A DNA stretch of 61,670 nt, taken from NCBI GenBank assembly GCA_027063645.1, contig JAMORK010000042.1, positions 1 to 61,670 of the forward strand, read 5' to 3'. Position 1 is the stretch's first letter. Each line of letters begins with the position of its first letter. Below, piece by piece: positions 6,755 through 37,427 of the stretch. The DNA comes from Sulfurimonas sp. (lineage in GTDB: Bacteria > Campylobacterota > Campylobacteria > Campylobacterales > Sulfurimonadaceae). Position numbers and translations under genes: made by a program. A model generated the notes under the pieces. The model was not told where the DNA came from. It worked only from the letters and a program-made list of their open reading frames with translations, and ran no database searches.

Positions 6755-6756
6755 AG

Positions 6757-6963: not shown

Positions 6964-6972
6964 GATCTAAAT

Positions 6973-7223: not shown

Positions 7224-7260
7224 CTTTTGCTAAGATATACTAAACAAAATGGAGAAAGAT

Positions 7261-7563: not shown

Positions 7564-7580
7564 AAAAAGAGGTTTGTAGA

Positions 7581-7604
7581 TACTATGAGCAAAAGCTCAT
7601 AGTA
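7581..7604. terminator. bidirectional hairpin between chorismate mutase gene and infA
   Basis: TACTATGAGC and GCTCATAGTA form a perfect 10-bp stem with an AAAA loop. It lies between the 3' ends of two convergent genes. Only short T/A tracts flank it, so it is probably a shared terminator or an RNA 3'-end-protecting structure. Confidence 0.6.
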
Positions 7605-7611
7605 AAATCGT

Positions 7612-7830: not shown

Positions 7831-7851
7831 TATAAGTCCTTTAGTTTTCTC

Positions 7852-8610: not shown

Positions 8611-8612
8611 CG

Positions 8613-21120: not shown

Positions 21121-21135
21121 AACTTGGAGAAAAAA

Positions 21136-22125
21136 ATGATATATTCTTTAATAAAATATTGTCTAGTTGTTACCCTTCTTATTTTTACAGGTTGTGCAAA
21201 ATCTCAAGAGGAAAAAGCATTAAAAATAGAAGACCAAAATGTAAGTATACGTATCGAAGCAGCTGTATACCCTAGTAAACGCGAAGATGTCCTTGCTTCT
21301 GTTGCAGGAAAGATAAAAAAACTTTATATTACTTATGGTGACAGGGTAAAAAAGGGTGATATTCTATACTCTTTAGATAAAGAGCTTATCAAACTAGATA
21401 TTCAAAATAAAAAAATTGAAGTTGCATCTTTAGAGAAAATTAGAAATAATTTTAAACGAAACCATAATGCATCTAGTAAAGAAGCTATAAACTTGGCTGC
21501 ACAAGAATTAAAAAAAGTTTCCAAGCTAAAAGCACAAGGCTATGTACGATCTTTTGAAGAAAACACTTACAAAAAAAACTACATTAATGCCGTTTACAAC
21601 AATAAAACGAAAGATAGTACCGATTACGAAAAACTCAATACACTTGAAACTAATTTAGCAACTAAAAAAATTGAATTGAAAAAGCTGGAGTATCAACTAA
21701 AACATGCCGATGCTTATGCTCATATTGATGGTTTTATTGTTGATATCCAAGTAAATGAGGGGGAATCAGTTAGTGAAGATAAAAAAGTGTGTATTATTGA
21801 AAACCTTGATTCCGTTATTGTTAGAGCAGGTTTTGCTAATGGTTTGCTTCCATTTATTCATATTGGTCAAATTGCTAAAATAAGCTTTGTCACATCGCCT
21901 CCTTACAATACTGAAGCGAAAGTAAACCGTATTGTCCCGATTGTTGATCCTGCATTTAAAAATATGACCTTAGATATTGAACTCCCGAACAATCATTACA
22001 TACTACAAGAGGGAACGCGAGCACTTGTAACACTTGAACTTACAAAAGAGGGGCAAGATAAAGTAAGAAAATACTTTATGCATAACAAAAGAGATAGAGT
22101 CGTAGAGATTCAATCAAAGATATAA
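21136..22125 (+). CDS. lipoprotein membrane-fusion (HlyD/RND adaptor) protein
   Basis: The 329-residue protein starts with a lipoprotein signal (hydrophobic stretch, then FTGC; C20 would be lipidated). It has a biotinyl-lipoyl-like half motif (SVAGKIKKLYITYGDRVKKGDILYSLD, cited in part), then a helical hairpin of about 100 residues. The second lipoyl half (HIDGFIVDIQVNEGESV) and a beta-barrel region end the protein. Adaptors of this type bridge an inner-membrane exporter and a TolC channel. No RND or ABC pump is adjacent, but a TolC-like gene lies in the facing operon. ATG 21136 is chosen because GGAG lies 6 nt upstream; an in-frame TTG at 21124 is less likely. Confidence 0.75.
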   Translation: MIYSLIKYCLVVTLLIFTGCAKSQEEKALKIEDQNVSIRIEAAVYPSKREDVLASVAGKIKKLYITYGDRVKKGDILYSLDKELIKLDIQNKKIEVASLEKIRNNFKRNHNASSKEAINLAAQELKKVSKLKAQGYVRSFEENTYKKNYINAVYNNKTKDSTDYEKLNTLETNLATKKIELKKLEYQLKHADAYAHIDGFIVDIQVNEGESVSEDKKVCIIENLDSVIVRAGFANGLLPFIHIGQIAKISFVTSPPYNTEAKVNRIVPIVDPAFKNMTLDIELPNNHYILQEGTRALVTLELTKEGQDKVRKYFMHNKRDRVVEIQSKI

Positions 22126-23520
22126 ATAAACTCTTCCTAAGGGAAGATTTTTATGTGTAAAAATATCTTTTTGAAATTTAAGATCTACTACAGTTGTCTC
22201 TTTTTGGCTTTTTAGGTAAATATTACTGTATGTATCTAGTATTGTTCTACCCCTCTTTAGATGGGGAGATTGTATTTTCAAGTATAACTCTTCAGAAGAT
22301 TGTTCACAAACTAATACAAACCCCTTTTCATAAAATCTTATATACCCTTCGAGTGTACCGATTTTTTCGTAACTCTCCCCAAGTGGAGCTCCTAAATCAT
22401 AAAAGTAAATCTCATCGCGTTCTAATTTTCTATTTGTTGGGATCTCTGCATAAACTAAATTATTGGTGAGTTTTGCCATTGCATAACTAAAATAGATAGC
22501 ATTTTTAGGTTTCACCTCTTTGTATAAAGGTAGATTCTTATACACTTTTTCATAATCAGGTGCAATATAATTTAAATAGATAAAATTTTTAAAACCATCT
22601 TTTTTATACTCTTTTTTGTATTTTGTAAGCATATCAATAAATTTTAACGAATCTGCGATACTCTGAGAATTATCATAAATAGGATAGTAATTTGTTACAC
22701 TTATTTCATCTACCCAACCCTTATTAAGAAGTTGCAATTTTATCTTTTTTGTCACATCAGTTGTGATGTAGCTTTCTGTCATATCATATGTGACATAAGG
22801 AAGTACAAACTGTTTTTGTCTAAAACCCTGATTTGTTACAACAAAAATATTTTTCTTTTTGAGTGTTTTATAAAATTTTTCAACAAGATCAAAATATTGT
22901 AGTTTAGGATTTAATTTTTTGAAATTGCTGAGTATCTCTTTATATGGTTTATCTAAAATATATTGTGCTGGAGCCCAATCAAAGAAAATACCATTAAACT
23001 TTTTTTCTTGCATATTATTGAGTAGATCAGCTACTCGTTTATCAAAGAGTTCCTCATTACCAAGATTGTAGTAATACTCACGACACCAATCGTAATGATT
23101 CTCTTTACAGTGAATAAATGGTCCCTCAGGATTTAAAGTGGTCTTTTCTCGGTGCTGATACAACCACTCAACAAAATCTCTATTTTCACCATCAGTATAA
23201 TAATACAATGCTGGCATCCAATCATAAGCAATATGATGTGGTATTTGCAATAAGCCTTGCTTTTTAAGAAGTGTGGCATTGACATTATTGTCTTCTACAT
23301 TACCTAACTCAACAATATTAAATTTCTTCATCCAAGTGAGTTCATCACCTTTTGCAAAAGGTGATGCAATAAGGTAGTCACCTTTCACCTCTTTTAAATC
23401 AGTGATTTTTGGGCTTTTGCTTGTTATATAATTTTCTTTTGATACAAGAGAAAATTGGTTTGCTTCTAGCGAAGAGAGTAATAATAAAAGAAATAAACTA
23501 TATTTTACAATAAGACTCAT
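22114..23520 (-). CDS. secreted glycoside-hydrolase-like (TIM-barrel) protein
   Basis: The 468-residue protein has a signal peptide (hydrophobic residues 4-20, cleavage near LEANQ). Its central domain resembles TIM-barrel putative glycoside hydrolases of the GH114/TM1410 kind: KFNGIFFDWAP with an Asp at a strand end, VVTNQGFR and the YVTYDMTESYI segment. In the Pel system PelA has a related hydrolase domain fused to a deacetylase; here the deacetylase is a separate gene two positions upstream. It is the last gene of the 13-gene operon, overlaps its upstream neighbour by 4 nt and the convergent adaptor gene by 12 nt. The exact family is uncertain. Confidence 0.6.
   Translation of the reverse strand: MSLIVKYSLFLLLLLSSLEANQFSLVSKENYITSKSPKITDLKEVKGDYLIASPFAKGDELTWMKKFNIVELGNVEDNNVNATLLKKQGLLQIPHHIAYDWMPALYYYTDGENRDFVEWLYQHREKTTLNPEGPFIHCKENHYDWCREYYYNLGNEELFDKRVADLLNNMQEKKFNGIFFDWAPAQYILDKPYKEILSNFKKLNPKLQYFDLVEKFYKTLKKKNIFVVTNQGFRQKQFVLPYVTYDMTESYITTDVTKKIKLQLLNKGWVDEISVTNYYPIYDNSQSIADSLKFIDMLTKYKKEYKKDGFKNFIYLNYIAPDYEKVYKNLPLYKEVKPKNAIYFSYAMAKLTNNLVYAEIPTNRKLERDEIYFYDLGAPLGESYEKIGTLEGYIRFYEKGFVLVCEQSSEELYLKIQSPHLKRGRTILDTYSNIYLKSQKETTVVDLKFQKDIFTHKNLPLGRVYLYL
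22132..22152 (+). terminator. terminator of galE-adaptor operon, inside the facing gene's 3' end
   Basis: TCTTCC (22132-22137) and GGAAGA (22142-22147) form a 6-bp stem with a TAAG loop followed by five T residues. It lies 7 nt past the adaptor stop codon and within the 3' coding end of the convergent glycoside-hydrolase-like gene. Confidence 0.6.
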
Positions 23521-24422
23521 TTTTTCAAAAGCTCCTTGAAGGAGAGTTTTTTTGTAATTAAAAAGATATACAGCAGTATAAAATCTACCGCAAATAAAAG
23601 TATATGAAAAATCGTTGCAGCAATGAGAGCATCTTCTGCATTCACATTATGAGCTGTTAAAAAAAGAACTACAGCAGCCTCATATGTGCCAATTCCAGCA
23701 GGTGCTAATGGGACAGAGAGTGCAATAGTAGAAAAGATAAATAGTTCTAATATCATAGAGATATTAAGGGAGAAATCTACTGCATAAAGGAAAAAAACAG
23801 CAGTAGAAGCAAAATACACTAACCATAATAGAAGACTGTAAAAAAGTAACGATAAAGGTTTTTGAAAAAGAGTATGTACACTTTTATAGATTTTTTGTAT
23901 ATAGATCCTCAAAAATCTAAAAGGTATTTTTTTAATAAGTATTAGTGCATATTTTGTATTGAAAAAAACAATTGTTAAGAGAATTAAAACACTCAAAAGT
24001 AGTATAGAGTTTTTTGCCATTTCATTTGAGACATAGGTATATGCCCACAGACAAAGAAGTAAAAATATAATTATTAGATCCAAAAAACGTTCTACAAACA
24101 TAATGGAGATAGTTTTATGATAACTATAGTTATAAAACTTCTTTAAATAAATGGCTTTTGAGACCTCTCCTAATTTTGCAGGTAAAATCATGTTCAGTGC
24201 ACTTGAAACAATAATAGTCTCAAAAGAGACTTTAAAAGAGAGAAGTGACATCTTCATCCAACGAATACTAAGTACAATTTGAGATACAAGAATAACAAAA
24301 AAGCTAAGAACAATACCTACAATAGAAAATTTTGATATATTGATTTTATCTATATCAAAATCATAAAGAAGATAGATAAAAATAGCTATAAGTAAAACTG
24401 TATTAAAAATTTTACTTTTCAT
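23517..24422 (-). CDS. LPG-synthase-type (UPF0104) membrane protein
   Basis: The 301-residue protein has about 7-8 transmembrane segments. It carries the UPF0104/lysylphosphatidylglycerol-synthase membrane pattern: LNMILPAKLGEVSKAIYLKK near residue 80, FVERFLDLIII near 105 and VPLAPAGIGTYEAAVV near 240. Such domains are proposed lipid flippases or transporters and are frequent in polysaccharide and glycolipid loci. It overlaps both neighbours (11 and 4 nt). Confidence 0.75.
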   Translation of the reverse strand: MKSKIFNTVLLIAIFIYLLYDFDIDKINISKFSIVGIVLSFFVILVSQIVLSIRWMKMSLLSFKVSFETIIVSSALNMILPAKLGEVSKAIYLKKFYNYSYHKTISIMFVERFLDLIIIFLLLCLWAYTYVSNEMAKNSILLLSVLILLTIVFFNTKYALILIKKIPFRFLRIYIQKIYKSVHTLFQKPLSLLFYSLLLWLVYFASTAVFFLYAVDFSLNISMILELFIFSTIALSVPLAPAGIGTYEAAVVLFLTAHNVNAEDALIAATIFHILLFAVDFILLYIFLITKKLSFKELLKK

Positions 24423-25164
24423 TTAAAATATCTTCTATCTTATTTTTTGCAAAACTAGAGGCATAAAAAGCTAAAATATAATCTATATTTACCCCAGCAT
24501 ATTGTAAAAAACTTTTAAGTAAATTTGTTTGCATCAGTTCATATGGATGAATGTACAGTATAGGATTTTTTGTTTTTTTAAATAAAATCTTAAGTATCCA
24601 AGTTGGTAGGACTCGCAGATAAAAACCACCACTAAAAGGAATTATATACTTTGGAATTGGTCGCTCTTGAACTTTTCCAAAATTTGTATATATATCAAAA
24701 GGATTTGTTTTATTTATGCTATTTCCATACATATAATTTTTCATTGGGAAATAAGATGAAGAGTATTTCAACCCAATTTTTGCTAAATGCTCATAGTATC
24801 TTTTTTCAAAAGGCATAGACCAGCTTGGACTTCTATACCCTAAAACTTTTTCACCTATTATCTCTTGGAGCAAATTTTTAGCTTTTAGGAGATCTGATGC
24901 CCATGTATCAAAATCTTCTTTATAAACTAAATTATGATGATAGCCATGGCATGCTATTTCTATATTTGCTTGAAAAAGTTTCTTAACAAGATGAGGATAT
25001 TTTTGAGCAAAACTGCCTAAAACAAATGCCGTTGCACTCTCCCCTCGACTCAGCTTTATAAATGTATCGATATACTCTTCATAATTTATAGCTGGTTCTT
25101 GCTTCCATTGAACATTAAAATTCATATCTACCACTTCTTCGACATCTATAGTAAGCCAAATCAT
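24412..25164 (-). CDS. polysaccharide deacetylase (CE4/NodB-like)
   Basis: The 250-residue enzyme starts MIWLTIDVEEV. D7 and E9/E10 take the place of the usual DD, as in exosortase (XrtA)-associated deacetylases. H73 and H77 (CHGYHH) look like the metal ligands, and YRSPSWSM is the motif-3 arginine segment. It would remove acetyl groups from an amino sugar. There is no signal peptide, so it acts in the cytoplasm or is not exported by Sec, unlike the periplasmic deacetylase domain of PelA. It overlaps the FemAB-like gene by 4 nt and the flippase-like gene by 11 nt. Confidence 0.8.
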   Translation of the reverse strand: MIWLTIDVEEVVDMNFNVQWKQEPAINYEEYIDTFIKLSRGESATAFVLGSFAQKYPHLVKKLFQANIEIACHGYHHNLVYKEDFDTWASDLLKAKNLLQEIIGEKVLGYRSPSWSMPFEKRYYEHLAKIGLKYSSSYFPMKNYMYGNSINKTNPFDIYTNFGKVQERPIPKYIIPFSGGFYLRVLPTWILKILFKKTKNPILYIHPYELMQTNLLKSFLQYAGVNIDYILAFYASSFAKNKIEDILNEK

Positions 25165-26060
25165 AAATCAACCAGGTATTTACAAAGTTTTGGACCAATA
25201 AAGTCAACCATTTTTTTAGGAAGTTTTTTCCAGATATCAGAAGCTAAAGAATATCTTGCATATATATCAATCTCTTGTGAAGAGTGGATATCTATCTTTA
25301 CTGGATTTGCACCAAATTGAGATTTGAATTTATAAGTGCTCCCCCCATAAGAGGATCTTCCAAAATCAAATATTTTACTTTGTGTATTATCACAAATATA
25401 TTTAAGTGTTTCCCAATAAATTTGATAGCCTGCGAGTTTACTATTGTACTCACTACGAACGCCACCCCAAGGGTACCAAGCTATCTCTTCATCAAGTAAA
25501 ATACACATTGTAGCTATAACTTCATGCCCATCATAAAGGTTAAAAAAGATGATATTTTCTCCAAACTCCTCCACTAAATTATAAAATATCTTTTTATCTA
25601 AAAGTGGTGTGCCATGTTTATACATAGTTGATGAGAAAATAGTATAAAAATCTTCTATATCTTGAGATCTGTTTCCATATTGCATTGAAAAATTAAACTT
25701 TTTAAATGCATTTCTCACCTTGTTTCTACATCTTGATTTTACATCTTGTGCGAAGAGTTCTTCACTTGTTTTATCTTCAATACTTACTCTCATAGTAACT
25801 GTATCATCTGTTATAAAACTATCATACTCAAAGTTTAAAGCTCTTATCTGATACTCGTTGTCTTTAGCTAATTCTAACAGATCTTCAATATTATCACTTC
25901 GTCTATCTGTATAGTTTAACAAAGGCAAATAACTTAATGTTTTTGCACCTGTTATAGAAGGGACAACAACAAAGTCCATATATTTTGGATAATTATAAAG
26001 CTTATTGAGAGCTTTTGTAAATCTCATTACAAAAGAGTTTGTTAATAAGGTCTTATTCAT
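25161..26060 (-). CDS. FemAB/GNAT-type acyltransferase-like protein
   Basis: The 299-residue protein has the two-lobed GNAT look of FemAB-like proteins tied to exopolysaccharide and PEP-CTERM loci. CRNKVRNAFKKFNFSM lies mid-protein, the acceptor helix is AGYQIYWETLKYICD, and the signature is FDFGRSSYGGSTYKFKSQFG (near residues 230-250). It may transfer an acyl or aminoacyl group to a sugar or lipid intermediate; the substrate is unknown. It overlaps the DUF2304 gene by 8 nt and the deacetylase by 4 nt. Calling it FemAB-like rests on the C-terminal signature. Confidence 0.65.
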   Translation of the reverse strand: MNKTLLTNSFVMRFTKALNKLYNYPKYMDFVVVPSITGAKTLSYLPLLNYTDRRSDNIEDLLELAKDNEYQIRALNFEYDSFITDDTVTMRVSIEDKTSEELFAQDVKSRCRNKVRNAFKKFNFSMQYGNRSQDIEDFYTIFSSTMYKHGTPLLDKKIFYNLVEEFGENIIFFNLYDGHEVIATMCILLDEEIAWYPWGGVRSEYNSKLAGYQIYWETLKYICDNTQSKIFDFGRSSYGGSTYKFKSQFGANPVKIDIHSSQEIDIYARYSLASDIWKKLPKKMVDFIGPKLCKYLVDL

Positions 26061-26385
26061 CTTCTATTTTCTTTGCATTTTGTTTTGCAGTCTCTCGAAT
26101 AATGGTCGTAATCATTTGATTATGATTTTTTTGATTCACATATAAAATAATATTTACAAGTACCGTTAGTGCTAAAACGATATAAACAATAAGATCCGTA
26201 CCACTTTGAATCGAAAATACATGAGCGATACTATCTGAATATTCAGGTTTTAAAATCAATAAAAACACAAGAGCATAACCACCAAGGACACTTAGTTTTT
26301 GAAAAATTTTCAGTTTTGAAGAAAAAGAAAAAATTAAAAATGCTAAAGTAAGAACACTAATCAGAAAAAATTTAATAATTATCAT
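26053..26385 (-). CDS. DUF2304-like small membrane protein
   Basis: The 110-residue protein has three hydrophobic helices (about residues 3-20, 32-47 and 67-85) and the GTDLIVYIVLAL region found in DUF2304 proteins, which often sit beside DPM1-type glycosyltransferases, as here. It ends in a charged tail. It overlaps the GT2 gene by 4 nt and the FemAB-like gene by 8 nt. Its role is probably to anchor or assist the GT2 enzyme, by inference from context. Confidence 0.6.
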   Translation of the reverse strand: MIIIKFFLISVLTLAFLIFSFSSKLKIFQKLSVLGGYALVFLLILKPEYSDSIAHVFSIQSGTDLIVYIVLALTVLVNIILYVNQKNHNQMITTIIRETAKQNAKKIEDE

Positions 26386-27074
26386 TTCATTATACTCCCA
26401 GTAAAATAATCAAGAATGATGTTTATACTATTCCACATTGACTGACCTTTTTCTATTGTATATTCTGTATATCTTATCTCACAAGGTTTTTCAATATATT
26501 TCATATCTAATGATTTAATAATACTAATAATCTCAGAAGCATGTGCCATTCTATTTTGAGTAATCTTAAAATTTGGATACTTACTGATATGAATAGCTCT
26601 AAAGCCATTATGTGAGTCTGTCAACCAAAGTCCAGTCGTGAGCCAAGTAAAAATTCTTGAGGCTTGTAAAAGATACCTTTTTCGTGTAGGCATATTTTTA
26701 GTTTTTCCTAAAAATCTTGAGCCAAGCACGATATCAGCCTCATTATTCTCTAATGCCTCAACAAAAGGCACAATGTCGTAAGGGTTATGTTGTCCATCTG
26801 AATCAAAAGTGATAGCATAATCACATCCTAAGGTAAGTGCATATTCTAAGCCTGTTTGTAAAGCAGCTCCTTGTCCAAGGTTTATAATATGTTTTAGCAT
26901 ATATATACCTTTTAAAGAAGCTTTCTCATAACTTTTATCGCTAGAGCAATCATCTACAACAACAATATAATAAGAGGGGTATAAAGATTGCAACTCTTCT
27001 AAAACACCTTGTATCACCTTCTCTTCATTATATAAAGGTATGACAATGGCAACTTTTGCATTTTCTAAAGACAC
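26382..27074 (-). CDS. family 2 glycosyltransferase, DPM1-like
   Basis: The 230-residue cytoplasmic enzyme has the GT2 nucleotide-sugar core VAIVIPLYNEEKVI and VVVDDCSSDKSYE, then the metal-binding DSD in ITFDSDGQHNPYD and the acceptor-side DSHNGFRA. This subfamily usually moves a sugar to a polyprenyl phosphate. It has no membrane domain, so the neighbouring DUF2304 protein may tether it. It lies 1 nt after the HD-GYP gene. Confidence 0.8.
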   Translation of the reverse strand: MSLENAKVAIVIPLYNEEKVIQGVLEELQSLYPSYYIVVVDDCSSDKSYEKASLKGIYMLKHIINLGQGAALQTGLEYALTLGCDYAITFDSDGQHNPYDIVPFVEALENNEADIVLGSRFLGKTKNMPTRKRYLLQASRIFTWLTTGLWLTDSHNGFRAIHISKYPNFKITQNRMAHASEIISIIKSLDMKYIEKPCEIRYTEYTIEKGQSMWNSINIILDYFTGSIMK

Positions 27075-27075
27075 A

Positions 27076-28572
27076 TTAATCCTTTTTTGCTTTAATTTTC
27101 ATAATTTTTGTTTTGAGTGATTTTTCAATATCTAAAAAAGCATCTACAACGACGGCATTGAACATTTTTTTACTTAAATCTTTAATAATCTCAACTGCCT
27201 CTTCATGTGTTTTGCCCTCCTTATAAGAACGATCGCTCGTCACTCCAACATAAAACTCCCCAAGTGAAACAATCTGTGCATCTAAAGGAATCTGAGACTC
27301 TTTCAATCCAAAAGGGTACCCTTTTCCATCAAAACGTTCATGATGATATTTTATAATATTTTCAATAGGATACAGATGACAAATAGGCTCTACAATAATA
27401 CCACCAATAAGAGGATGCTCCTTAATGAGATTCATATCTTGCTCTTCTAACTCCTCTTTGTCAATAGCTACCAATAAGTCTCCAACCATTCCGATATCAT
27501 GTAAATAAGAACCTAATTGAATTGTATCAATCTCTTTTTCAGAAAGAAAAAGAGATTTGGCAATTTCTACAGAGATCGTTTGTACAATAAGGGAGTGATT
27601 CTTGTAGTAAGGATTTTCTAACTCAATTGCATCGTTTGTAAATCGTAAGAAAGAGAGATAATTCTTAATAGTTTCACTTTCATAATCTGTATTGACTAAG
27701 AATCCACCTGCCATATCTAAAAATGAACCAACCTGAGTAATTGTTTCTTGTTTTAAAGGTTTTGTATCGTAAAACTCTAACTTATAGGGTGTATTTCTAA
27801 TAAAAAAAACTTTTTTCAATGAAGCATTTTCACTAGGAGCTTGTTCAAAAACAAGTGCACCCTCTTTAGTAAAAAGCTTTACACCTTCTGCTTTGGTAAT
27901 TTTAATAACCAATGAGATAAAAAATTTGAAAAATTGATTTTTATCCATCTGCAATTTCATAAGAGAACTAGAGGTGCTTTTACCTAAACTAGATTGTGTT
28001 TCGCCACCTTTAAAATTAAAACTTTTTGATACCTGTTCGTAATAAGTAAGCATAATATCAAAATAGCCATAATAAGGTTTCAGATCAAATGTATAAAAAC
28101 TAAAAAACATCATCATCTGATTTTGACTACTATTTGCTATACTGTACACTTTATAGTTACCACTTTTTTGAAAATCATCAATATCTTTTTTTCCTATTCT
28201 AAAGGGAGCAGCCACATCAGTGTTAGTGCTCGTGTTTGTCTCTATTAAGATATAAGTTTCGCCTCTTAATTCATACAGAGCAAGATACTTTGCATTCACC
28301 AGTTTTGCACTTTCAAGTAAAATTTTCTCAACATCTTTTATCTGTGTTTGAAGGCTTAATTTTTGTAAGAATGTATTAAACTCCAAATTTTTACTTTCCA
28401 AATAAACCTTTTGTCTAAAAATATTGAGCATAAAGAAAAAGAAAAAGAGAGAAAAAAGCCCAAAAATCCACCACCATTGTTCTAAAAAAGTATTTATTTG
28501 ATCTAAATTATATAAAATTATATCGGGGAGAATATTATTTAAATAATATCTACTTTGCTCAAAAAAACTCAT
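27076..28572 (-). CDS. membrane-anchored GAF-like/HD-GYP domain protein
   Basis: The 498-residue protein has one transmembrane helix (about 35-52), a coiled or linker region, and two GAF-like stretches (about 70-190 and 207-295). An HD-GYP domain follows (about 310-490). In it, H326, H358-D359, H386, H410-H411 and the DGKGYP loop (415-420) are present. The Lys of the usual HDxGK is Met362, and the Asp of the usual AD motif is Glu439. HD-GYP enzymes hydrolyse cyclic di-GMP; with these changes the protein may be active, altered or only a sensor. It sits where a c-di-GMP receptor (PelD) would be expected in a Pel locus. It overlaps the preceding gene by 4 nt. Confidence 0.8.
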   Translation of the reverse strand: MSFFEQSRYYLNNILPDIILYNLDQINTFLEQWWWIFGLFSLFFFFFMLNIFRQKVYLESKNLEFNTFLQKLSLQTQIKDVEKILLESAKLVNAKYLALYELRGETYILIETNTSTNTDVAAPFRIGKKDIDDFQKSGNYKVYSIANSSQNQMMMFFSFYTFDLKPYYGYFDIMLTYYEQVSKSFNFKGGETQSSLGKSTSSSLMKLQMDKNQFFKFFISLVIKITKAEGVKLFTKEGALVFEQAPSENASLKKVFFIRNTPYKLEFYDTKPLKQETITQVGSFLDMAGGFLVNTDYESETIKNYLSFLRFTNDAIELENPYYKNHSLIVQTISVEIAKSLFLSEKEIDTIQLGSYLHDIGMVGDLLVAIDKEELEEQDMNLIKEHPLIGGIIVEPICHLYPIENIIKYHHERFDGKGYPFGLKESQIPLDAQIVSLGEFYVGVTSDRSYKEGKTHEEAVEIIKDLSKKMFNAVVVDAFLDIEKSLKTKIMKIKAKKD

Positions 28573-30743
28573 TCTTTTTCCTTCTTTTTATCTCTTAAGT
28601 ATTGTATATAATTCCGATTATCAATGGAGTAAACAGTAACTGTTTTTGTCTTATAATATACCCTCATATTATCATGTGTCATTTGGTAGATTGCTAACCA
28701 GCTTTTTAACTGAGTTTGAAATTTTTCTCTCCATCTATAAAACCATTCTTCCATCCCTTTATATGCATTTGGATAATTTTCTACAAATATATATATCTTT
28801 TCTGTTGGAATAGCTAAGTACTTCTCAGCTGGAGAATAATCAAGGATTAAGTTTTGTGTATTTATATGGTAACCCTTATCTAGAATTTTAGCATAAGTTT
28901 GAATATAGGCAACAGCCGTCCAGCTATAAGGTCTATTCTCTTTATCAATTTTCATAATAATTTCTGGAATAGATGTATACTGCGTTTGGTTTATATTTTT
29001 CCAAAACTCTTCTGTATCAATCCATCTAGGTGTGCTAAGTACTAAAAACAAGAAAATCACATACATTAAAAAAAGTAATACGGAATTTGCATATTTTTTA
29101 AATATAGAAATAAATGGTTTTTGGATTAAATAATGAAAATAAAATGCCCCAAGTAAAGTCATAGCAAAAAAGAGGTACTCAATAAGTCTGCCTTGTTTTG
29201 TTAAAAGTGGTAAACCTGCATTTGGGCCAAAATAGATTAAAAAAACTCCAAGAATTATCAATAAATAAGAAGTGTTCAAAAATCTTTTCTTTGAAAAAAA
29301 TGCTATGATAAAGGCAAATGCCAAACTAGCAAACATCAATAGATGGAACTTAGAAATATTGATAATAGAAACTATAGAAAATCCTGTTTTTGCAATATTT
29401 TCAACATTTTTTTGAGTTCCTAAAAGTTTGTCTAGTATAGGAGCTGCTGCACCAAAATCTTGAGGAATACCATACTTTATCATAGAAAGAATCCATAAGT
29501 TACCAAATATTGCAGCAAAGATAATAGCAATAGTACCTCTTGTAAGTAATCTCCAATTTAGTTTCATAAAAAGAAGTGCATTTAATGCAATAAGCATACT
29601 TATAAATATAAGTACAATAGCCCCACCCCCATGAAATATAAAAACAAGCATCAAGGTTAAAGAGTAGAGAATAAGGTACTTTAGTAATTGTGTTTTAAAA
29701 ACTTTTATAAGAAAATAAGCATTGAGTAAAACAAATACGGAAGCATGCTCATATGCCATTCCAGATACATACCTTATGTATGTATAGTAACCCTCTAGAT
29801 GTCCTTGGGTTTTCACCTCTTGTAAACTTGGCATATAAAATTTCATATTAAAAAAATCTACAATATGAGGATTGGCTGTTGTCACAATCTCTCCTATAAG
29901 TAAATTTGACATTGGACTCATAAAAATCAAACCATGAAGAATAACACCAAAAAGAGCCGTATATTTAGAATCACTAAAGTCTTTAATAACATAATATATA
30001 GATATGTAAAGTGCAATAAGCAAAAGTAACGGATAGAGACTAAAAAGTATAATAGGATCAATATTTGTAAAAACATTGATAAAAAATATCATAATAGAGA
30101 TACCGTAAAAATCTGCTCCAAAGGTTTTATTGTCTGCATATAAATTATTATGTTGAAGATAATTCACCCATTCCATAAATTGAGCAGTATCACTTACAGG
30201 ATCACTGTAGCTCATCAGCCCTCGTGTTATGAGTATAGATAAGATATATGTAAAAACACTATAAAAAAGAACTTTTTTTGAAAGAGTAAAAAAACTAATG
30301 CGAGACTCAATTAAGAGTATTTTTTCTTTAATATTTGAGATAACCTGTTGTTTAAATCCTTGAGGATCATCTAAAATATCTAATGATTTTAACATAAGCT
30401 TCACCCTAAGATTATGTACTAGTTCACGAATACTTCTATGATAATAAAATTTTTCAAAGGCGAGTCTAGTTCCAACAAGTACTACAAGGAAAAAGATAAG
30501 ACTAAAAATTTTCACAAAAACCAATAAAGGTATTACAAGTTCAATATATGCACTCATATAGATAAAATTAAAAGTTAATTTTTGAACACTGCTAACGGTT
30601 TGGGATTGTGGAAAAATCTTTGTTGGCAACCAAACAAAAAGCATATAAGAAACCATCAAAAGTTTCATTACATACCAGATGTTTTTTGCAACAAAAGAGT
30701 AGACCATGCCTAAATCAATAAAATAGACATCTTGAGGGAACAC
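28569..30743 (-). CDS. large multi-pass membrane protein, possible GT-C or polymerase
   Basis: The 724-residue protein has an N-terminal pair of helices, a cytosolic loop (about 100-155), then around ten more helices up to about residue 575, and a soluble C-terminal domain of about 130 residues. The loop after the third helix (SDPVSDTAQFMEWVNYL) carries Asp residues at the membrane edge. Together with the long helix bundle this resembles GT-C-type transferases or Wzy-like polymerases. I cannot assign a family. It lies 4 nt after the lipoprotein gene and overlaps the HD-GYP gene by 4 nt, so the two may form a complex. Confidence 0.6.
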   Translation of the reverse strand: MFPQDVYFIDLGMVYSFVAKNIWYVMKLLMVSYMLFVWLPTKIFPQSQTVSSVQKLTFNFIYMSAYIELVIPLLVFVKIFSLIFFLVVLVGTRLAFEKFYYHRSIRELVHNLRVKLMLKSLDILDDPQGFKQQVISNIKEKILLIESRISFFTLSKKVLFYSVFTYILSILITRGLMSYSDPVSDTAQFMEWVNYLQHNNLYADNKTFGADFYGISIMIFFINVFTNIDPIILFSLYPLLLLIALYISIYYVIKDFSDSKYTALFGVILHGLIFMSPMSNLLIGEIVTTANPHIVDFFNMKFYMPSLQEVKTQGHLEGYYTYIRYVSGMAYEHASVFVLLNAYFLIKVFKTQLLKYLILYSLTLMLVFIFHGGGAIVLIFISMLIALNALLFMKLNWRLLTRGTIAIIFAAIFGNLWILSMIKYGIPQDFGAAAPILDKLLGTQKNVENIAKTGFSIVSIINISKFHLLMFASLAFAFIIAFFSKKRFLNTSYLLIILGVFLIYFGPNAGLPLLTKQGRLIEYLFFAMTLLGAFYFHYLIQKPFISIFKKYANSVLLFLMYVIFLFLVLSTPRWIDTEEFWKNINQTQYTSIPEIIMKIDKENRPYSWTAVAYIQTYAKILDKGYHINTQNLILDYSPAEKYLAIPTEKIYIFVENYPNAYKGMEEWFYRWREKFQTQLKSWLAIYQMTHDNMRVYYKTKTVTVYSIDNRNYIQYLRDKKKEKE

Positions 30744-30747
30744 TGCT

Positions 30748-32052
30748 CTACCTTTTGTGAATTGTGAATTCTACTCTACGATTTTTAGCTCTTCCCTCTG
30801 CATGTTTATTTGAAGCTATAGGATTAAACTCACCATACCCAATAGCTCTTATGCGTCTAGCATCTACACCCATATCAACAAGAGCTTCTTTTACTGCATT
30901 TGCTCTTAGCACTGATAATCTTTTATTGTATTTTTGTGAAGCAACATTGTCTGTATAGCCAACAAGAGATAATGTAGCTTCTTTATGCGCTAATAAATAC
31001 TCTGCTATTGGTTCTAGCACATGCAAACTTCCCTTGAGAAGTTTAGCTGAATTGTATTCAAAATTCAGATTTTCAAGAATCATTGGTTTATTTTCCACAA
31101 TAGGTGCTACTGCTATAGCCTCTCTCTTTAAATACCCTTTTTCCAATAGGTATCGTAAAAGTTTCCAACGAAGTAGCTCTCCATCATATCTTTTATCTTT
31201 AAATTCAAATGGTCGAATAAATACAACGGCTCCCTTTCCATAAGGGATTATAGAAACAATTGGAGATCCTTTAGTATTTGATAAAAGGGTTTTCCCTTCA
31301 GCTATAAAGTCAGCGGCTAAATAGTAGTTTGTATCTATCTTTAAGTCTTTTATATCTTGAAAATAATGGATAGGACTTTTTGGCTTGAACTTAAGTGTTA
31401 AAGGAACATAATTTACTTGATCTATATTTTTACTTTTGTAGATATGTGTATATACTTTTCTGTCAAAGAAATGTAGATGAGCACTTTTTGAAGCAATTTT
31501 TTCACTAATTCGCTTTGGATCAATGTAGCCACTATGTTTAAATGTATCATATCTTGTAGAATAAATTCCACCCTCTACCCAAAAGATTCCACCTTGTCCA
31601 ATCCACCATTGAAGAATCTCTTGCTCTTTATGTGAGAGATTATAGCTATATGCGATATCTTCAAAGAGATCATTTGAAACATGTAAAAACTTATTTGCCC
31701 ATGTTGGTAAGACATAAATAAAATCTTCTGAAAAAGGGTTTGTTCTTAGTTTCCAAAAATCGACATCTTTAATATGTGAAGCATAATAATTATAGTGAAT
31801 TTTATCATAGAACTGATTAGAGAACTTACCATCAAAATCTAATATAGGTTGATTTGAGATAAATGGAAACTTCTTAAGAAGTATTGCTCTATTGTCAGTT
31901 TTTCTATATACATGATCTACTGTTATGTCATAAATATCGACTGTCTCAGGTGTTAAGATTTTATCTTCTAGCTGTACTTCTTGCTGAGTACTGCATCCAA
32001 TAGTAAATGATAAAAATACCACAAGAAGGGAGTTTAATGCCAATGTTTTCAT
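30748..32052 (-). CDS. lipoprotein with C-terminal OmpA-like domain
   Basis: The 434-residue protein has a lipobox (FTIGC, lipidated C20) and a large N-terminal domain of about 300 residues (WIGQGGIFWVEGGIYS, SIIPYGKGAVVFIRPFEFKD) reminiscent of DUF4159/GATase-like proteins. A peptidoglycan-binding OmpA domain follows (about 320-434) with LVGYTDNVASQKYNKRLSVLRA and the GEFNPIASN and GRAKNRRVEF motifs. It would be held in the outer membrane and grip the cell wall, perhaps stabilising the export channel. It lies 19 nt after pelG. Confidence 0.75.
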   Translation of the reverse strand: MKTLALNSLLVVFLSFTIGCSTQQEVQLEDKILTPETVDIYDITVDHVYRKTDNRAILLKKFPFISNQPILDFDGKFSNQFYDKIHYNYYASHIKDVDFWKLRTNPFSEDFIYVLPTWANKFLHVSNDLFEDIAYSYNLSHKEQEILQWWIGQGGIFWVEGGIYSTRYDTFKHSGYIDPKRISEKIASKSAHLHFFDRKVYTHIYKSKNIDQVNYVPLTLKFKPKSPIHYFQDIKDLKIDTNYYLAADFIAEGKTLLSNTKGSPIVSIIPYGKGAVVFIRPFEFKDKRYDGELLRWKLLRYLLEKGYLKREAIAVAPIVENKPMILENLNFEYNSAKLLKGSLHVLEPIAEYLLAHKEATLSLVGYTDNVASQKYNKRLSVLRANAVKEALVDMGVDARRIRAIGYGEFNPIASNKHAEGRAKNRRVEFTIHKR

Positions 32053-32071
32053 ATCTAATCTAATCCTTATT

Positions 32072-33649
32072 TTAAAATGATGAATAATAATAATATTCTA
32101 GTTTTTTAAACATCTGTACAGAGTAATAAAAGCTTATTGCCCAAAAAACTATACTGCCAAACAACAATCCATAAATAGCATATTCTAAACCAAACATTCT
32201 ACTTAATACGACACCAATTAAAAGATTAACTACAGAAGCTGTTAAAATTGCCTTGAGTGAAAAATTTTGTCTTGAGAACGAAAACATAAAAAGAACATTC
32301 ATAAGACCATTAACCATAAAAGCATATGACACAGCTGCTATCCAATAAATAAATGGTGTAAAACTTTTGAAAAAATCTTTCGTAAACTCATAATCCATAT
32401 ACTTGTCTAATAAGTATACAGCATAATATGTAAGAATAATAATAATTATAGAAACGATTAAGTAAGCCAGATTGAATTTTTTGAAAAAACTATAAATTTT
32501 ATTGTTAAACTCTTGATATTCAGAGTACTTATACTTTATAACCAAGTCATTAATTCTATACATAAATTCATGAATACTGATTTCGGTAAGACCCATAAGT
32601 AAAACAAGTGCAATAAGAGCCCAGTCTAATCCTAATTCATAAGGTACATTAAACCAAATAAAATAAGGCTTCGCCTCCATATAATTACTCCATGCAACCA
32701 TTCTATCTGTCACTAAGAAAATAAAATAAAGAAACCCATAAAGATAAAATGGGATAAGAGAATAAAAGAGTATGGAAGCCCTTGGCGTTCCCTCCCCCTC
32801 AGCACTTAAATCTTTTCTTTTAAGATTCCTGATTTTTATAAAGGTAAAAAAGATGATAAGTGCATCTAAAACAACTAAAGATATAAACTGTGCTTCTGGT
32901 AAACGAACCTTAAGAATACTATGTGAAATATAAGTAAAAATAACACCTAAAATAAAGAAGAAAAGAATGGTATTATACTCTTCAAACATATAGTAAATGG
33001 CAATATTTAAGAATAAGACAGAGAGTAAAAAATAAAATGCAACCATTATAAAAAAATAATAGCTTGGAAATATTTCAAAAAATATATTGAACAATATAAG
33101 AAAAGAACCAATAGTAAAAACAAGTATATACCCGATGCTAAGTAGTTTTCTTGTTATGTTGGCAGCAAGTATAACCTCCCCTTGCTTGAGGTAAAAGAGT
33201 CCCTTCCTTCCGATAGCTTGAGCAGAAGCTCCAGTAACTATAAGTGCTAAAAAGGTACCAACTGCAATTACCGTTGCTTTTGTTTTGTCCATCTCTAGTC
33301 CTGACCAAATTGCATAACCTATGGAGAGTGTAAAAAATATTTGTACAAACATTGGCATAGCAAAAGCTAAACCACGAAGATAGTTTTTTACCATTCTTAG
33401 AAATAATGGAGGTAAATCTTCAAAATTTACAAGAGATTTAGTAGGGTATTGTTTTACATCTCTATATTGCATCATATATTTTGCCATCTCAAAAACATTT
33501 TCAAAACCATACTCTTGCTGTGCATCGATATCTCTAATTCCATATACTTCTAAAAGTGCTGTAATCTCCCAAAAATCAAGTGGTTTTCCTCTCTCTTGAG
33601 TTATATTTTTATATAACTCACTAAGATCTCTAGTTGTAGCTACCTCCAC
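32072..33649 (-). CDS. pelG: PelG-like MATE/Wzx-type membrane transporter
   Basis: The 525-residue protein has about 12 transmembrane helices and the PelG-like segment LIPFYLYGFLYFIFLVTDRMVAW. A cytosolic N-terminal extension of about 100 residues (WEITALLEVYGIRDIDAQQ and onward) precedes the first helix. The P. aeruginosa protein is about 456 residues, so the extension accounts for the extra length. PelG is the inner-membrane transporter of the Pel system and works with PelF. It overlaps pelF by 10 nt. Assignment follows from sequence flavour plus the neighbouring pelF. Confidence 0.75.
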   Translation of the reverse strand: MEVATTRDLSELYKNITQERGKPLDFWEITALLEVYGIRDIDAQQEYGFENVFEMAKYMMQYRDVKQYPTKSLVNFEDLPPLFLRMVKNYLRGLAFAMPMFVQIFFTLSIGYAIWSGLEMDKTKATVIAVGTFLALIVTGASAQAIGRKGLFYLKQGEVILAANITRKLLSIGYILVFTIGSFLILFNIFFEIFPSYYFFIMVAFYFLLSVLFLNIAIYYMFEEYNTILFFFILGVIFTYISHSILKVRLPEAQFISLVVLDALIIFFTFIKIRNLKRKDLSAEGEGTPRASILFYSLIPFYLYGFLYFIFLVTDRMVAWSNYMEAKPYFIWFNVPYELGLDWALIALVLLMGLTEISIHEFMYRINDLVIKYKYSEYQEFNNKIYSFFKKFNLAYLIVSIIIIILTYYAVYLLDKYMDYEFTKDFFKSFTPFIYWIAAVSYAFMVNGLMNVLFMFSFSRQNFSLKAILTASVVNLLIGVVLSRMFGLEYAIYGLLFGSIVFWAISFYYSVQMFKKLEYYYYSSF

Positions 33650-35136
33650 TCTCGACCCTTTTCACTCATAAACTCTATATAAAGATCTTTATATACTTTT
33701 CCATAACTCTCTACCATATCTTCTATGGTAAATCCATTGAGTATAGATTCTCTAGCATCCATCCCCATATCTTTCGCAATCTCCGGATTTTTAAGTACAT
33801 AAAGCACTTTATCGGCAAACTCTTGATAATCTTTTGGCTTCACAACAAAACCATAATCTTCAAGTACCTCTTTTGTTCCTCCAACATCAGAAGAAACAAC
33901 AACTTTTTCACAAGCCATCGCTTCAATAACTACAAAAGGAAAGGCTTCAGAGATACTTGTAAGCATAACAACATCCCCTTCGTTATAAGCTGTTTGAGGG
34001 CTACTTGTTAAACCTGCAAAAGAGAAGTTGCTTTCTAATTGTAGTTCCTCTACTAAATTTTGACAGATATGATAATACTTTTCATCCACTATAGGTCCAT
34101 AGAGTTTAAAAAGGACATTTGGTACTTCTTGCCTTACAATCTCTGCAGTTCGTATATATGTTTCAATATCTTTTAAAGGATCAATTCTAGCAACCATCAC
34201 AACAGTTGGTCTATCATCCTCTTTTTCTACATCAAATTGTTTAAATACATTGGTATCTATGCCATTATAGATTGTTTGAATCTTTGCCTCGTCTACTCCC
34301 CACTTTTTCTCCCATCGTGAGTTGTAATCACAAACAGGAGAAACAATATCTGCAAAATGAAAGTTTAATTTAGAAACAAGAGTAATTAACCCCATAAGGA
34401 ACTCTTTTGTTCTATATGGCGTTTGGTTTCTTGAGTTTGCTAAATACTGCTCTCGTATGTAAACGCCATGCTCTGTTAGTAAGAACTTACTTCCATACTT
34501 TTTTTTAGCAATAATACAAGAAAGCCCACAAAATGCAGCTGCCGATGAGTGATAAATATGAGCTTCAGGCAGAGTAGGAAGCAGAGAAATAAAAAATCTA
34601 TAAAGATAACGTAATCCCTCTATCATATCAAAAGTACTAGGGATATCCTCTTGTGTATCTTTAAAGTGTTCTAAAAAATACTCTTTATATATCTCCCATA
34701 GGTCTTCACTTCTAAAAGTTTCATAATAATCATAAGTTTGAAAGTACTCATAAAACTCATAAATAGAATCACCTAAGCCATTTAAATCTTCTTTATTTCT
34801 ATAAATATGATCAAGAACCAATACCATCATAGGTCGTAATATATCCATATGATTTTCATTTTGTGTTTTGATTTTTGCTTCGTATATTTTTGAAAATTCA
34901 ATTTTTCGTATATATTCTATTGGTTCTTCTGTTCCCCATAAAGGAACATTTATAATATCTACAACATTTGGGGGAATATTGAATTTCACTTTTACAAAAG
35001 GGTGCATCTGTATAGGTATCAATACAAAGTCGATATTTTTTAATTCATGCATTAAAATATCAGCCCATGTACTTACACCACCTGTAACATAGGGATATGT
35101 TCCCTCACCAGTCCAAACAATTTTTATTCTACTCAT
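33640..35136 (-). CDS. pelF: PelF-like GT4 glycosyltransferase
   Basis: The 498-residue cytoplasmic enzyme starts with the typical PelF text IKIVWTGEGTYPYVTGGVSTW. It has the GT4 core in its C-terminal half: VARIDPLKDIETYI, then FAGLTSSPQTAYNEGDVV, and the EX7E region in SEAFPFVVIEAMACEKVV. P. aeruginosa PelF (about 507 residues) polymerises Pel from UDP-GalNAc. The length and N-terminus agree well. It overlaps the TolC-like gene by 8 nt and pelG by 10 nt. Confidence 0.88.
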   Translation of the reverse strand: MSRIKIVWTGEGTYPYVTGGVSTWADILMHELKNIDFVLIPIQMHPFVKVKFNIPPNVVDIINVPLWGTEEPIEYIRKIEFSKIYEAKIKTQNENHMDILRPMMVLVLDHIYRNKEDLNGLGDSIYEFYEYFQTYDYYETFRSEDLWEIYKEYFLEHFKDTQEDIPSTFDMIEGLRYLYRFFISLLPTLPEAHIYHSSAAAFCGLSCIIAKKKYGSKFLLTEHGVYIREQYLANSRNQTPYRTKEFLMGLITLVSKLNFHFADIVSPVCDYNSRWEKKWGVDEAKIQTIYNGIDTNVFKQFDVEKEDDRPTVVMVARIDPLKDIETYIRTAEIVRQEVPNVLFKLYGPIVDEKYYHICQNLVEELQLESNFSFAGLTSSPQTAYNEGDVVMLTSISEAFPFVVIEAMACEKVVVSSDVGGTKEVLEDYGFVVKPKDYQEFADKVLYVLKNPEIAKDMGMDARESILNGFTIEDMVESYGKVYKDLYIEFMSEKGREWR

Positions 35137-36781
35137 AAAGTTCTTTTTTTCCCGTGAGTATACCTAAAATAAACATCTCTTTTGTGTAATTTTCTTCAAG
35201 ATCTAAGAGTTGCAATGTATAATTTAAATAACTTGTTAAAGCATTCGAGTAGTCTCTGTATTGTGCAGTTCCTATAAAATACTCCTCTTTAGCAATAATA
35301 ATTTTTTTACTTGCTAAAGCCACCTGTTTTTCAAGTATCTCTTTTTGTTCTTGAAATCTTTGAATAGAATTGTATGAGTATTCGATAGCCAATAACACTT
35401 CTCTCGATTTTGCAGATAAAACACTTTTTTGTTTTAAAATAGCATTGAGTTCTTTGTCTTTATTTAAAATAATATCTTTACGATTATAGATAGGAATTTG
35501 AAATGTCAATCCAGCTTCCCAATAAGTTGACATTCCAGTTGTATTGATATTTTCAAAATAGAGTGCATCATTCGCCGTACCATATCCAAGATGAGACTGA
35601 AAATTTATAGTTGGGTAATAGCGTCTTGTTTGTGCAATAAAATCTGTTTGATTGATTTTTAATTTATTGGATTCTAATGCTATATCACTACTGTTTTGAA
35701 TTGCTTGTTTTTGTAGATCTACTAAAGAAGCTAAATGAAAATTGATTTTCTCTTGAAAAAGTTTATAAGGTTTTTCACCCTTAGATTTTATACTATGTTT
35801 TAAAATATTTTCATTATGCACATGAATATATTTTTGATTAAGCACTACTCTTTGTAAAGAAAAAAGACCATTCTGTGCATCTATATTGTCTAATGATGAA
35901 TTTTTCCCCTCATTATAACCTTTAGAGATTATAAGAGTCATCGATTTTTGTTTCTCATATATCTCTTCATATATACGAAGCTTTTCTTGAGAAGTGTACA
36001 GATTGGAGTATATGCTTAAACCTAAAATAGCCAACTTCTCTTTTGCATTCAATGCGGTAATATCTGCGAGTCTTTTATTTAAAATATCGTATGTATGATT
36101 AATAAGGCTATACTGTCCATCGTATAGAAGCTTATTTGCATTAAGTGCAACACCAACACCTGACTCTTTAAATGCACCCGTTTGTACATTGGGTATATTT
36201 AACTGTTGTGTAGATATATACTGACCCGTTCTTGCATACCCATCTACATAGATGTCAAAATTATAACGATCTTTTTGTATTTCATTTAATAAATAATCAA
36301 TCTTTTTTTGGTAAAAAAGCTCTTCTGCATTATCGTTGTATTCAAATAAAGCTGAAAGATATGTAGTAAATTCTAAAGGATCATAGGATCTTGATGGAAA
36401 AAACTTTTCTGATTCTTCTGATTGGTATATTGGTGCAGTTTTTGGTTCGTTTAAAAGAGGTCTTTGAGGAACTTGAATATTTTTAATCTCTTTTTTTTGA
36501 GAAACCTCTCTTTGACAATTTATAATAAATGCATGTTTATAACTCTTTTGTACTTGAGAAAGTTCTTTTTTAATCTCTTTATATTTTTTATGTGAAGCTA
36601 ATTTAAAAACATAGTATTTTTTTTGTTTTTCTATTACTGCAGATGGGTATTGATTAAGAAACTTCTCTTTTTCTTTCAAATCAAGCTTGGGTGCAGAACT
36701 TGCAATAATACAAAATTCTTGTGCAAAAAGAGAAGAGAAGCTTAAAAAGATCCCAATTAATAATAAAAATTTATTTGTCAT
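35129..36781 (-). CDS. TolC-like outer-membrane factor with N-terminal SPOR-like module
   Basis: The 550-residue protein has a signal peptide (cleavage near LFAQE) and a 70-residue module with SPOR-like features (EFCIIASS at the start, YYVFKLASHKKYKEIKKEL, then HAFIINC). A proline-rich linker leads to the OEP/TolC region from about residue 130 (LSIYSNLYTSQEKLRIYEEI, TYWEAGLTFQIPIYN, YSYNSIQRFQEQKEILEKQ). The module's cysteines C24 and C89 could form a disulfide. TolC proteins are trimeric channels joined to adaptors, and an adaptor gene faces this operon. In P. aeruginosa the Pel exit is PelB/PelC instead. Confidence 0.75.
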   Translation of the reverse strand: MTNKFLLLIGIFLSFSSLFAQEFCIIASSAPKLDLKEKEKFLNQYPSAVIEKQKKYYVFKLASHKKYKEIKKELSQVQKSYKHAFIINCQREVSQKKEIKNIQVPQRPLLNEPKTAPIYQSEESEKFFPSRSYDPLEFTTYLSALFEYNDNAEELFYQKKIDYLLNEIQKDRYNFDIYVDGYARTGQYISTQQLNIPNVQTGAFKESGVGVALNANKLLYDGQYSLINHTYDILNKRLADITALNAKEKLAILGLSIYSNLYTSQEKLRIYEEIYEKQKSMTLIISKGYNEGKNSSLDNIDAQNGLFSLQRVVLNQKYIHVHNENILKHSIKSKGEKPYKLFQEKINFHLASLVDLQKQAIQNSSDIALESNKLKINQTDFIAQTRRYYPTINFQSHLGYGTANDALYFENINTTGMSTYWEAGLTFQIPIYNRKDIILNKDKELNAILKQKSVLSAKSREVLLAIEYSYNSIQRFQEQKEILEKQVALASKKIIIAKEEYFIGTAQYRDYSNALTSYLNYTLQLLDLEENYTKEMFILGILTGKKELYE

Positions 36782-37427
36782 TTTCTACCATTTTAATTAG
36801 TTTTTCATATATCGGTAATTTCATCATTATTTCAAGTATTAGGTGATAAATAAAAAACACAAAGACTATGCTACCCAAGGTATCAGAGAACCAATGTGCA
36901 CCAAGAATGACACGTGCTGATATCGATACAATAGCATATATTAATAAAAGCATTATGCATATATTGGAAATCATCCTATTTTTTATCGATGAAAGTACTA
37001 AACGATACATCAATAAGCTAAGACAAAGAGCTAAAACAGAATGCCCAGATGGATAAGAATATCCACTAAGGCCATCAATACCAGACAAAGGACGAGGAAT
37101 TACAAATATATATTTTAATATATAAGCTCCTCCTGCTGCAGAGACAAAGAAAAACAAAGCAAATAGCAACTCTTTCAAATCTTTTCTTTTGTATAGAATT
37201 ACACTTATAAAAGTAAAGATTACAATGGCACTTGAAGTTGAAGAAAATTTTGTAATAAAGGTAAAAAAATCATCAATCTGTGGTGTTTTATACTCTTGAA
37301 TAATTGTAAACACTTCAGAATCAAAAGAGGTAAAAAGTTGTACTTTTACCATAAAACTGAGAGAAACAAAGAGCAATAAAAAAAAGGATACTTCTACTTT
37401 ATTGCTTAAAAAAAGTTGTTTTTTCAC
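36771..37427 (-). CDS. PAP2-family membrane phosphatase, first gene of operon
   Basis: The 218-residue protein has about six helices and all three PAP2 motifs: KYIFVIPRP (KX6RP), YPSGHS and ARVILGAHWFSD (the SRX5HX3D type, with Ala for Ser). Such enzymes dephosphorylate undecaprenyl pyrophosphate or similar lipids. This would recycle the lipid carrier and fits a polysaccharide operon. The start is GTG 37427, with AGGTG 7 nt upstream; it overlaps the TolC-like gene by 11 nt. Confidence 0.8.
   Translation of the reverse strand: MKKQLFLSNKVEVSFFLLLFVSLSFMVKVQLFTSFDSEVFTIIQEYKTPQIDDFFTFITKFSSTSSAIVIFTFISVILYKRKDLKELLFALFFFVSAAGGAYILKYIFVIPRPLSGIDGLSGYSYPSGHSVLALCLSLLMYRLVLSSIKNRMISNICIMLLLIYAIVSISARVILGAHWFSDTLGSIVFVFFIYHLILEIMMKLPIYEKLIKMVENDK

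Follow-up and report, generated by a model that had tools for sequence, protein, structure and literature searches.

A PelF/PelG-centred exopolysaccharide locus with a non-canonical gene set in a Sulfurimonas-like bacterium

Genes of the locus and their relation to Pel

The window analysed here is a single contig of 61,670 nucleotides (JAMORK010000042.1) from the 54%-complete genome of a Sulfurimonas-like member of the Campylobacterota (assembly GCA_027063645.1). Between positions 22114 and 37427 it holds an operon centred on PelF and PelG, and the locus resembles a Pel machine in the working of its core, but the parts that define a pel operon set it apart from one. A first-pass annotation had proposed thirteen tightly packed genes, and all thirteen open reading frames were confirmed in place. 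They lie on the minus strand and run from 37427 to 22114, in the order PAP2-family phosphatase, TolC, PelF, PelG, OmpA lipoprotein, GT-C glycosyltransferase, HD-GYP protein, GT2, DUF2304, FemAB, deacetylase, flippase and hydrolase. Eleven of the 12 junctions are overlaps or gaps of 1–4 bp, the sole exception being the 19 bp between the lipoprotein and PelG genes. Promoter-like sites are no more frequent than in shuffled sequence. The unit goes beyond 22114 to include a gene for an HlyD-type adaptor (21124–22125, plus strand) and, by linkage, galE (20107–21120, plus strand), both of which the first-pass annotation had left out. GalE is a UDP-hexose 4-epimerase of 337 amino acids (aa) that would supply UDP-N-acetylgalactosamine (UDP-GalNAc) or UDP-Gal (TIGR01179, 465 bits, cut-off 262). 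The PAP2 gene (36771–37427, 218 aa; PF01569, 44 bits), which had been counted as a full member, is a lineage-specific extra only, found beside the operon in three close relatives (L049, L052, L054).

The reference set for the comparison with Pel consisted of 21 canonical loci of other Campylobacterota, nearly all of which hold PelA and PelC to PelG as well as PelB and a TPR protein. Every protein family of the window was compared with these eight families, profile against profile, using hhalign. The GT4 synthase (33640–35136, 498 aa) is certainly PelF by its sequence: it scores 135 bits with PF11997, exceeds the NF038011 cut-off of 100 (168 bits) and matches canonical PelF with P=100 and E 8e-62 at approximately 23–25% identity, yet it is placed outside the canonical clade. 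The multi-spanning, exporter-like membrane protein that follows (32072–33649, 525 aa) appears to be a remote homologue of PelG. It matches PF16933 over its full length with 20.4 bits (cut-off 29), while a Psychrobacillus orthologue (L172) reaches 29.2 bits. Neither local nor global hhalign comparison with canonical PelG supported homology (P=0.4), and the Pfam model is the sole support. The earlier statement that PelF and PelG are both recognisable is firm for the former and weak for the latter.

The last gene of the operon (22114–23520) encodes a secreted glycoside hydrolase of 468 aa that gave no match in the domain search but is related to the hydrolase domain of PelA (GH166), with P=92 and E 5.5e-7 over an aligned stretch of 97 columns. 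D181 (in FFDW) and E249 (in TESYIT) align with the catalytic Asp and Glu motifs of PelA and are invariant in 8/8 relatives. Hydrolysis requires D149/E207 in P. thermotolerans PelA and D160/E218 in P. aeruginosa PelA (PMC12022489). The CE4-type deacetylase of 250 aa (24412–25164; PF01522, 46 bits; DUF3473, 45 bits; TIGR03006, 123 bits) does not match the PelA deacetylase domain (P=0.2). Its metal motif TIDVE starts at residue 5, which leaves no room for a signal peptide, and the protein is therefore predicted to be cytoplasmic. The idea of a PelA split into two proteins thus survives for the hydrolase part and is lost for the deacetylase part.

As first proposed, no counterpart of PelB, PelC, PelD or PelE was found among the window proteins in this profile comparison. 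The PelA deacetylase domain had no counterpart either, and only PelF and the PelA hydrolase domain gave a match. The best window-protein match to PelD or PelE had P≤12, and TolC matched PelB with P=0.4. Two matches to PelC (P 63–66) were dismissed, as they cover the lipoprotein signal peptide alone (columns 3–32). Searches of PDB profiles with the hydrolase, the lipoprotein and the GT-C protein gave no matches. What the locus has in common with Pel is PelF, probably PelG and a PelA-type hydrolase only. The canonical Gram-negative pelABCDEFG, arranged as PelCDEFGA-TPR-PelB in Campylobacterota, also shares galE linkage and the chromosomal site with the locus, which instead of the absent parts has TolC, HlyD, an OmpA lipoprotein, GT-C, HD-GYP and genes for a lipid-linked sugar. 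The Gram-positive pelDEADAFG of Bacillus cereus (PMC7112168) likewise has the PelF/PelG core, with the PelA-type hydrolase as a protein of its own and galE close by; however, its PelF falls in the canonical clade, and its PelD, PelE and PelADA are all absent from the locus.

Lipid-linked sugar genes, export and regulation

The membrane protein of 724 aa (28569–30743) has no Pfam match. Its AlphaFold2 model (predicted local distance difference test score, pLDDT, 88; predicted template modelling score, pTM, 0.89) retrieved only GT-C enzymes in Foldseek, namely the oligosaccharyltransferase (OST)/STT3 (E 9e-6), DPY19, PglB and AftA (E 1.7e-3). D185 is invariant in 23 sequences. The predicted fold and an acidic residue located in periplasmic loop 1 place the protein among the GT-C glycosyltransferases.

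Further along the operon, the GT2 protein of 230 aa (26382–27074; GT2 family, 86 bits) is nearest to the polyprenyl-phospho-GalNAc synthase PpgS: the best model was NF058614 with 195 bits (E 1e-57), and the next one scored 54 bits. A small DUF2304 membrane protein of 110 aa (26053–26385; PF10066, 43 bits) is its presumed partner. Next to these lie a FemAB/GNAT-type transferase of 299 aa (25161–26060; Acetyltransf_6/FemAB, 39 bits), nearest to the XrtA-associated FemAB family (TIGR03019, 118 bits, cut-off 260), the deacetylase described above, and a flippase-like LPG_synthase_TM membrane protein of 301 aa (23517–24422; PF03706, 110 bits; TIGR00374, 57 bits, cut-off 43). These five genes are called the second module below. 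The XrtA/PEP-CTERM exopolysaccharide sets use the same deacetylase (TIGR03006) and FemAB (TIGR03019) families, but both matches of the locus stay under their cut-offs, and neither exosortase nor chain-length genes occur in the operon.

The route suggested by these genes resembles the one from ArnC through ArnD and ArnEF to ArnT, by which 4-amino-4-deoxy-L-arabinose (Ara4N) is added. A likeness in enzyme families is found in Mycobacterium and Corynebacterium, where galactosamine (GalN) is put on arabinogalactan by an epimerase, PpgS, Rv3632, a GT-C enzyme and a flippase and deacetylase to which no gene has been assigned (PMC9671496). The mycobacterial epimerase provides UDP-GalNAc, PpgS with Rv3632 loads it onto polyprenyl phosphate, and after flipping and deacetylation the GT-C enzyme Rv3779 transfers the sugar (PMC9671496). 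A neighbour of ppgS in C. glutamicum is homologous to Rv3632 (PMC9671496); a DUF2304 match was found in C. glutamicum, and we infer that the two are the same gene. The window has one candidate gene for each step of this pathway. The UDP-hexose epimerase, the PpgS-like GT2, the membrane partner of approximately 110 aa and the GT-C transferase are common to both, and a deacetylase and a flippase, which the mycobacterial pathway needs as well, are present at the locus. The differences are that the acceptor would be an exopolysaccharide rather than arabinogalactan, that the GT2 lies under the equivalog cut-off, and that the locus has all the genes and a synthase in one operon.

For export, a TolC-family channel of 550 aa (35129–36781; PF02321 (OEP), 72 bits) and the HlyD/RND-type periplasmic adaptor, a lipoprotein of 333 aa encoded convergently with the operon (PF16576 (HlyD_D23), 68 bits), are the sole predicted outer-membrane duct parts of the locus. 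Channel and adaptor of a tripartite HlyD-TolC system are thus both present. No ABC, RND or MFS inner-membrane partner was found among the operon and adjacent genes, so PelG would have to fill that place. TolC has an extra N-terminal SPOR/AMIN-like domain with weak similarity to SPOR or, in L078 (7824–9995), to AMIN. This short domain was also seen to resemble the N-terminal part of a single canonical PelB from Campylobacterota (L150:76–3123) with E 5e-8. The lipoprotein (30748–32052, 434 aa) has a lipobox, an alpha/beta N-terminal domain and a peptidoglycan-binding OmpA domain (68 bits); its model (pLDDT 83) matched only the OmpA domain in Foldseek, and this domain is missing in family f8. The SPOR/AMIN-like and OmpA domains may anchor the duct to the cell wall. 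For cyanobacterial cellulose, where a dedicated barrel is likewise lacking, export by a synthase with HlyD and TolC has been proposed, though not proven (XcsAB-TolC, PMC12430437). The synthase of the locus, however, is GT4/PelG rather than a BcsA-type GT2, and its tolC lies in the operon, whereas tolC is scattered in cyanobacteria.

The membrane-anchored HD-GYP protein of 498 aa (27076–28572; HD_5, 86 bits) has an atypical active site. HDIG, H386, HHE and DG-GYP are retained in Campylobacterota, and the HD, HHE and GYP motifs can all be recognised. The protein has HDIGM and GEFYVG, whereas the other HD-GYP proteins of the genome have HDIGK and DVFDAL. Met thus replaces the Lys of HDxxK, and Glu replaces the final Asp of DxxDAL, as it does in seven Campylobacterota members. 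Taken together with the loss of the HD dyad in three Bacillota members, these altered motifs suggest that the protein fills the role of PelD as a receptor or a slow enzyme.

Conservation, reach across phyla and chromosomal site

When 397 Campylobacterota genomes were scored with PF11997, the scores were bimodal: 21 genomes lay at 243–300 bits and nine, including the source genome, at 136–155 bits, so that the variant type accounts for 9/30 genomes above the cut-off. One more genome had a match below the threshold. Mutual exclusion of the two types is not claimed, as zero co-occurrence is at chance level for 21 and nine genomes in 397. The order tolC-pelF-pelG-lipoprotein-GT-C-HD-GYP was found in every low-scoring genome with sufficient sequence, with the second module adjoining. 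In family f8 this module lies on the opposite strand, together with HlyD.

A scan of GTDB genomes using a PelF alignment gave 80 loci, of which 34 were diderm. In the diderm loci tolC was directly upstream of pelF (33/33) and pelG directly after it (29/29). All 19 loci with 9 kb of downstream sequence have the lipoprotein, including its N-domain, and the GT-C gene (19/19 each). In the same set HD-GYP was present in 15, FemAB and the flippase in 14 each, and GT2 and the deacetylase in 13 each. HlyD adjoins the operon in 9/19, and the adaptor is taken as a conserved part of the system. In Nitrospirota and Desulfurellales the same gene set was found in a different order. The set is therefore kept together in relatives across phyla. 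This conservation and the profile comparison, both of them checks suggested in the first-pass annotation, support its proposal of a different machine around the PelF/PelG core.

In the PelF tree, a branch with a support of 100 separates variant PelF from the canonical PelF of Campylobacterota and Bacillales, and grouping by phylum was rejected (p-AU 7.5e-98). Nor is the variant merely the pel type of Gram-positive bacteria, since the canonical PelF of Bacillales joins that of Campylobacterota and a Bacillota clade was rejected (p-AU 7.5e-98). The variant clade extends to Nitrospirota, Bacillota, Chloroflexota and Bacteroidota. Within single groups both types were encountered: canonical in 20/200 and variant in 3/200 genomes of the order of Psychrobacillus, and 15/148 and 1/148, respectively, in Nitrospirota.

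Variant PelF and PelG are accompanied in the Bacillota loci by GT2, by proteins like DUF2304 and HD-GYP, by a hydrolase of the PelA/GH114 type and by one or two GT-C proteins. TolC, HlyD and the lipoprotein were not found at these loci, which fits an outer-membrane service of those parts. In three of them (L166, L168, L175) two coiled-coil-rich proteins sit between PelF and PelG. In Bacteroidota, PelF-PelG is followed by a GH114 protein and then by two large proteins (L179:14327–20000 and L180:826–6856), a membrane protein of approximately 660 aa, of which one was scanned and had no Pfam match, and a protein of more than 1200 aa that resembles a lipoprotein; these are perhaps the counterpart of the GT-C and export parts. 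An endo-galactosaminidase-type hydrolase was present in each lineage examined, PelA-like in Campylobacterota and Nitrospirota, and GH114 in Bacillota and Bacteroidota (30–60 bits), and this, like the presence of galE, points indirectly to a chain of alpha-1,4-GalN/GalNAc.

The chromosomal site of the operon is the interval from rnhB to a gene for a 182-aa protein and moeA, with flanks at 19504–20061 and 37507–39266 in the window. In sister genomes the rnhB-moeA interval holds canonical pel with galE (L152–L157 and L047), is empty (L161, L162) or carries sox-type or other genes (L158–L160), while L049, L050 and L052 have the order moeA, 182-aa gene, galE and variant operon. The interval is therefore a variable site in the genus (L047, L152–L165), and the locus is taken as a swap between the two pel types, in either direction, at a position common to both and with galE retained. 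Behind pelB of the canonical locus L157, another full-length PelA-like gene was observed (6591–9257).

A proposed mechanism and its alternatives

The gene content, homologies, conservation, GT-C fold and allelic position are what the analysis shows; from them we infer the substrate, the order of the steps, the export path and the regulation. The best overall explanation, which we hold to be somewhat better than an even bet, is a synthase-dependent exopolysaccharide machine of the Pel family with a GalN branch, a TolC-HlyD exit and HD-GYP control. GalE would make UDP-GalNAc, which PelF would polymerise in the cytoplasm, and PelG would pass the chain across the inner membrane. In a parallel branch, the PpgS-like GT2 and its DUF2304 partner would load GalNAc onto polyprenyl phosphate; the cytoplasmic deacetylase would free the amine of the lipid-linked sugar, which FemAB may acylate, and the flippase would turn it outward. 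The GT-C protein would then transfer this sugar to the emerging chain, so that positive charge would arrive with a pre-deacetylated sugar and not via PelA in the periplasm. The adaptor and channel would stand in for the PelB/PelC exit, held to the cell wall by SPOR/AMIN-like and OmpA domains, the HD-GYP protein would take the place of PelD as a nucleotide-responsive regulator, and the hydrolase would trim the polymer. The product is probably a related galactosamine polymer, made by a route not described in the literature searched.

Several observations weigh against this explanation. PelG of the window stays under its Pfam cut-off and is unconfirmed by hhalign. The nearest folds to the GT-C protein are oligosaccharyltransferases with template modelling scores (TM-scores) of 0.34–0.38. 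GT2 reaches 195 bits where the NF058614 equivalog cut-off is 370, and the deacetylase 123 bits where the TIGR03006 cut-off is 276. HlyD is encoded on the opposite strand and at 9/19 loci. The second module is partial or altered at some loci: L058–L060 are without the deacetylase, FemAB and DUF2304, and it is incomplete in L076, where the contig ends. HD-GYP is not beside the operon in L069, L073 and L075.

More tentatively, and somewhat short of an even chance, the locus may represent a distinct class of machine, in which a PelF/PelG chain is given its charge outside the membrane by a GT-C enzyme with a lipid-linked amino sugar, leaves through an HlyD-TolC duct and is controlled by a membrane HD-GYP receptor. 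The first-pass annotation called the system undescribed. In the literature searched, no published description of PelF with HD-GYP or TolC was found; divergent loci with pelF or pelFG only had, however, been noted in earlier surveys (PMC7112194), and to that extent the claim has to be narrowed. The locus sets the PelF/PelG core apart from the other components of Pel and shows that parts for export, charge and control can be swapped as blocks at one site. A match to PelF alone does not prove that a genome produces Pel. If the proposed mechanism is true, there is a second way to a cationic galactosamine polymer, and the operon offers linked candidates for the deacetylase and flippase steps of the homologous mycobacterial galactosamine pathway, to which no gene has yet been assigned.

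Among the alternatives, the one that survives best is still unlikely. It holds that the locus makes ordinary Pel (alpha-1,4 GalNAc/GalN) with swapped export and control, and that the GT2, DUF2304, FemAB, deacetylase and flippase genes form a separate co-located pathway that decorates lipid A, the S-layer or another glycan. A site and galE in common with canonical pel, the retained PelA-type hydrolase and a second module that lies on the other strand or is missing at several loci would all be expected from it. However, the core block includes GT-C, and not just PelF and PelG, and GT-C is present in 19/19 long loci; in Bacillota, too, PelF/PelG have GT2, DUF2304 and a deacetylase beside them; and the locus has kept no PelA deacetylase domain that could act on a periplasmic chain.

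It is also rather improbable that variant PelF takes another sugar donor, with a product that is not galactosamine-based and a hydrolase of changed specificity. The linkage to galE, the occurrence in every lineage of a hydrolase that is PelA-like or GH114 and the invariance of the catalytic Asp and Glu in 8/8 relatives speak for galactosamine, even though the low identity of PelF to its canonical relatives, its own clade and the 97-column span of the hydrolase alignment leave some space for such a change. Finally, an OST-like role of the GT-C protein, in which a finished chain or glycan is attached to the lipoprotein or another acceptor and the polymer is anchored to the cell, is very unlikely: OST/STT3 and PglB are the top Foldseek matches and the lipoprotein gene adjoins the GT-C gene in 19/19 loci, but any GT-C enzyme can reach TM-scores of 0.34–0.38, and Bacillota loci keep two GT-C genes without the lipoprotein.

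The GT-C gene itself varies in copy number and length among the loci. It is duplicated in G013 (L037/L038), where each of the two copies is split near residue 486, and L077 has three copies. The copy in L058 (14398–15933) has an in-frame gap of residues 378–626; in L059, a near relative, the gene is complete.

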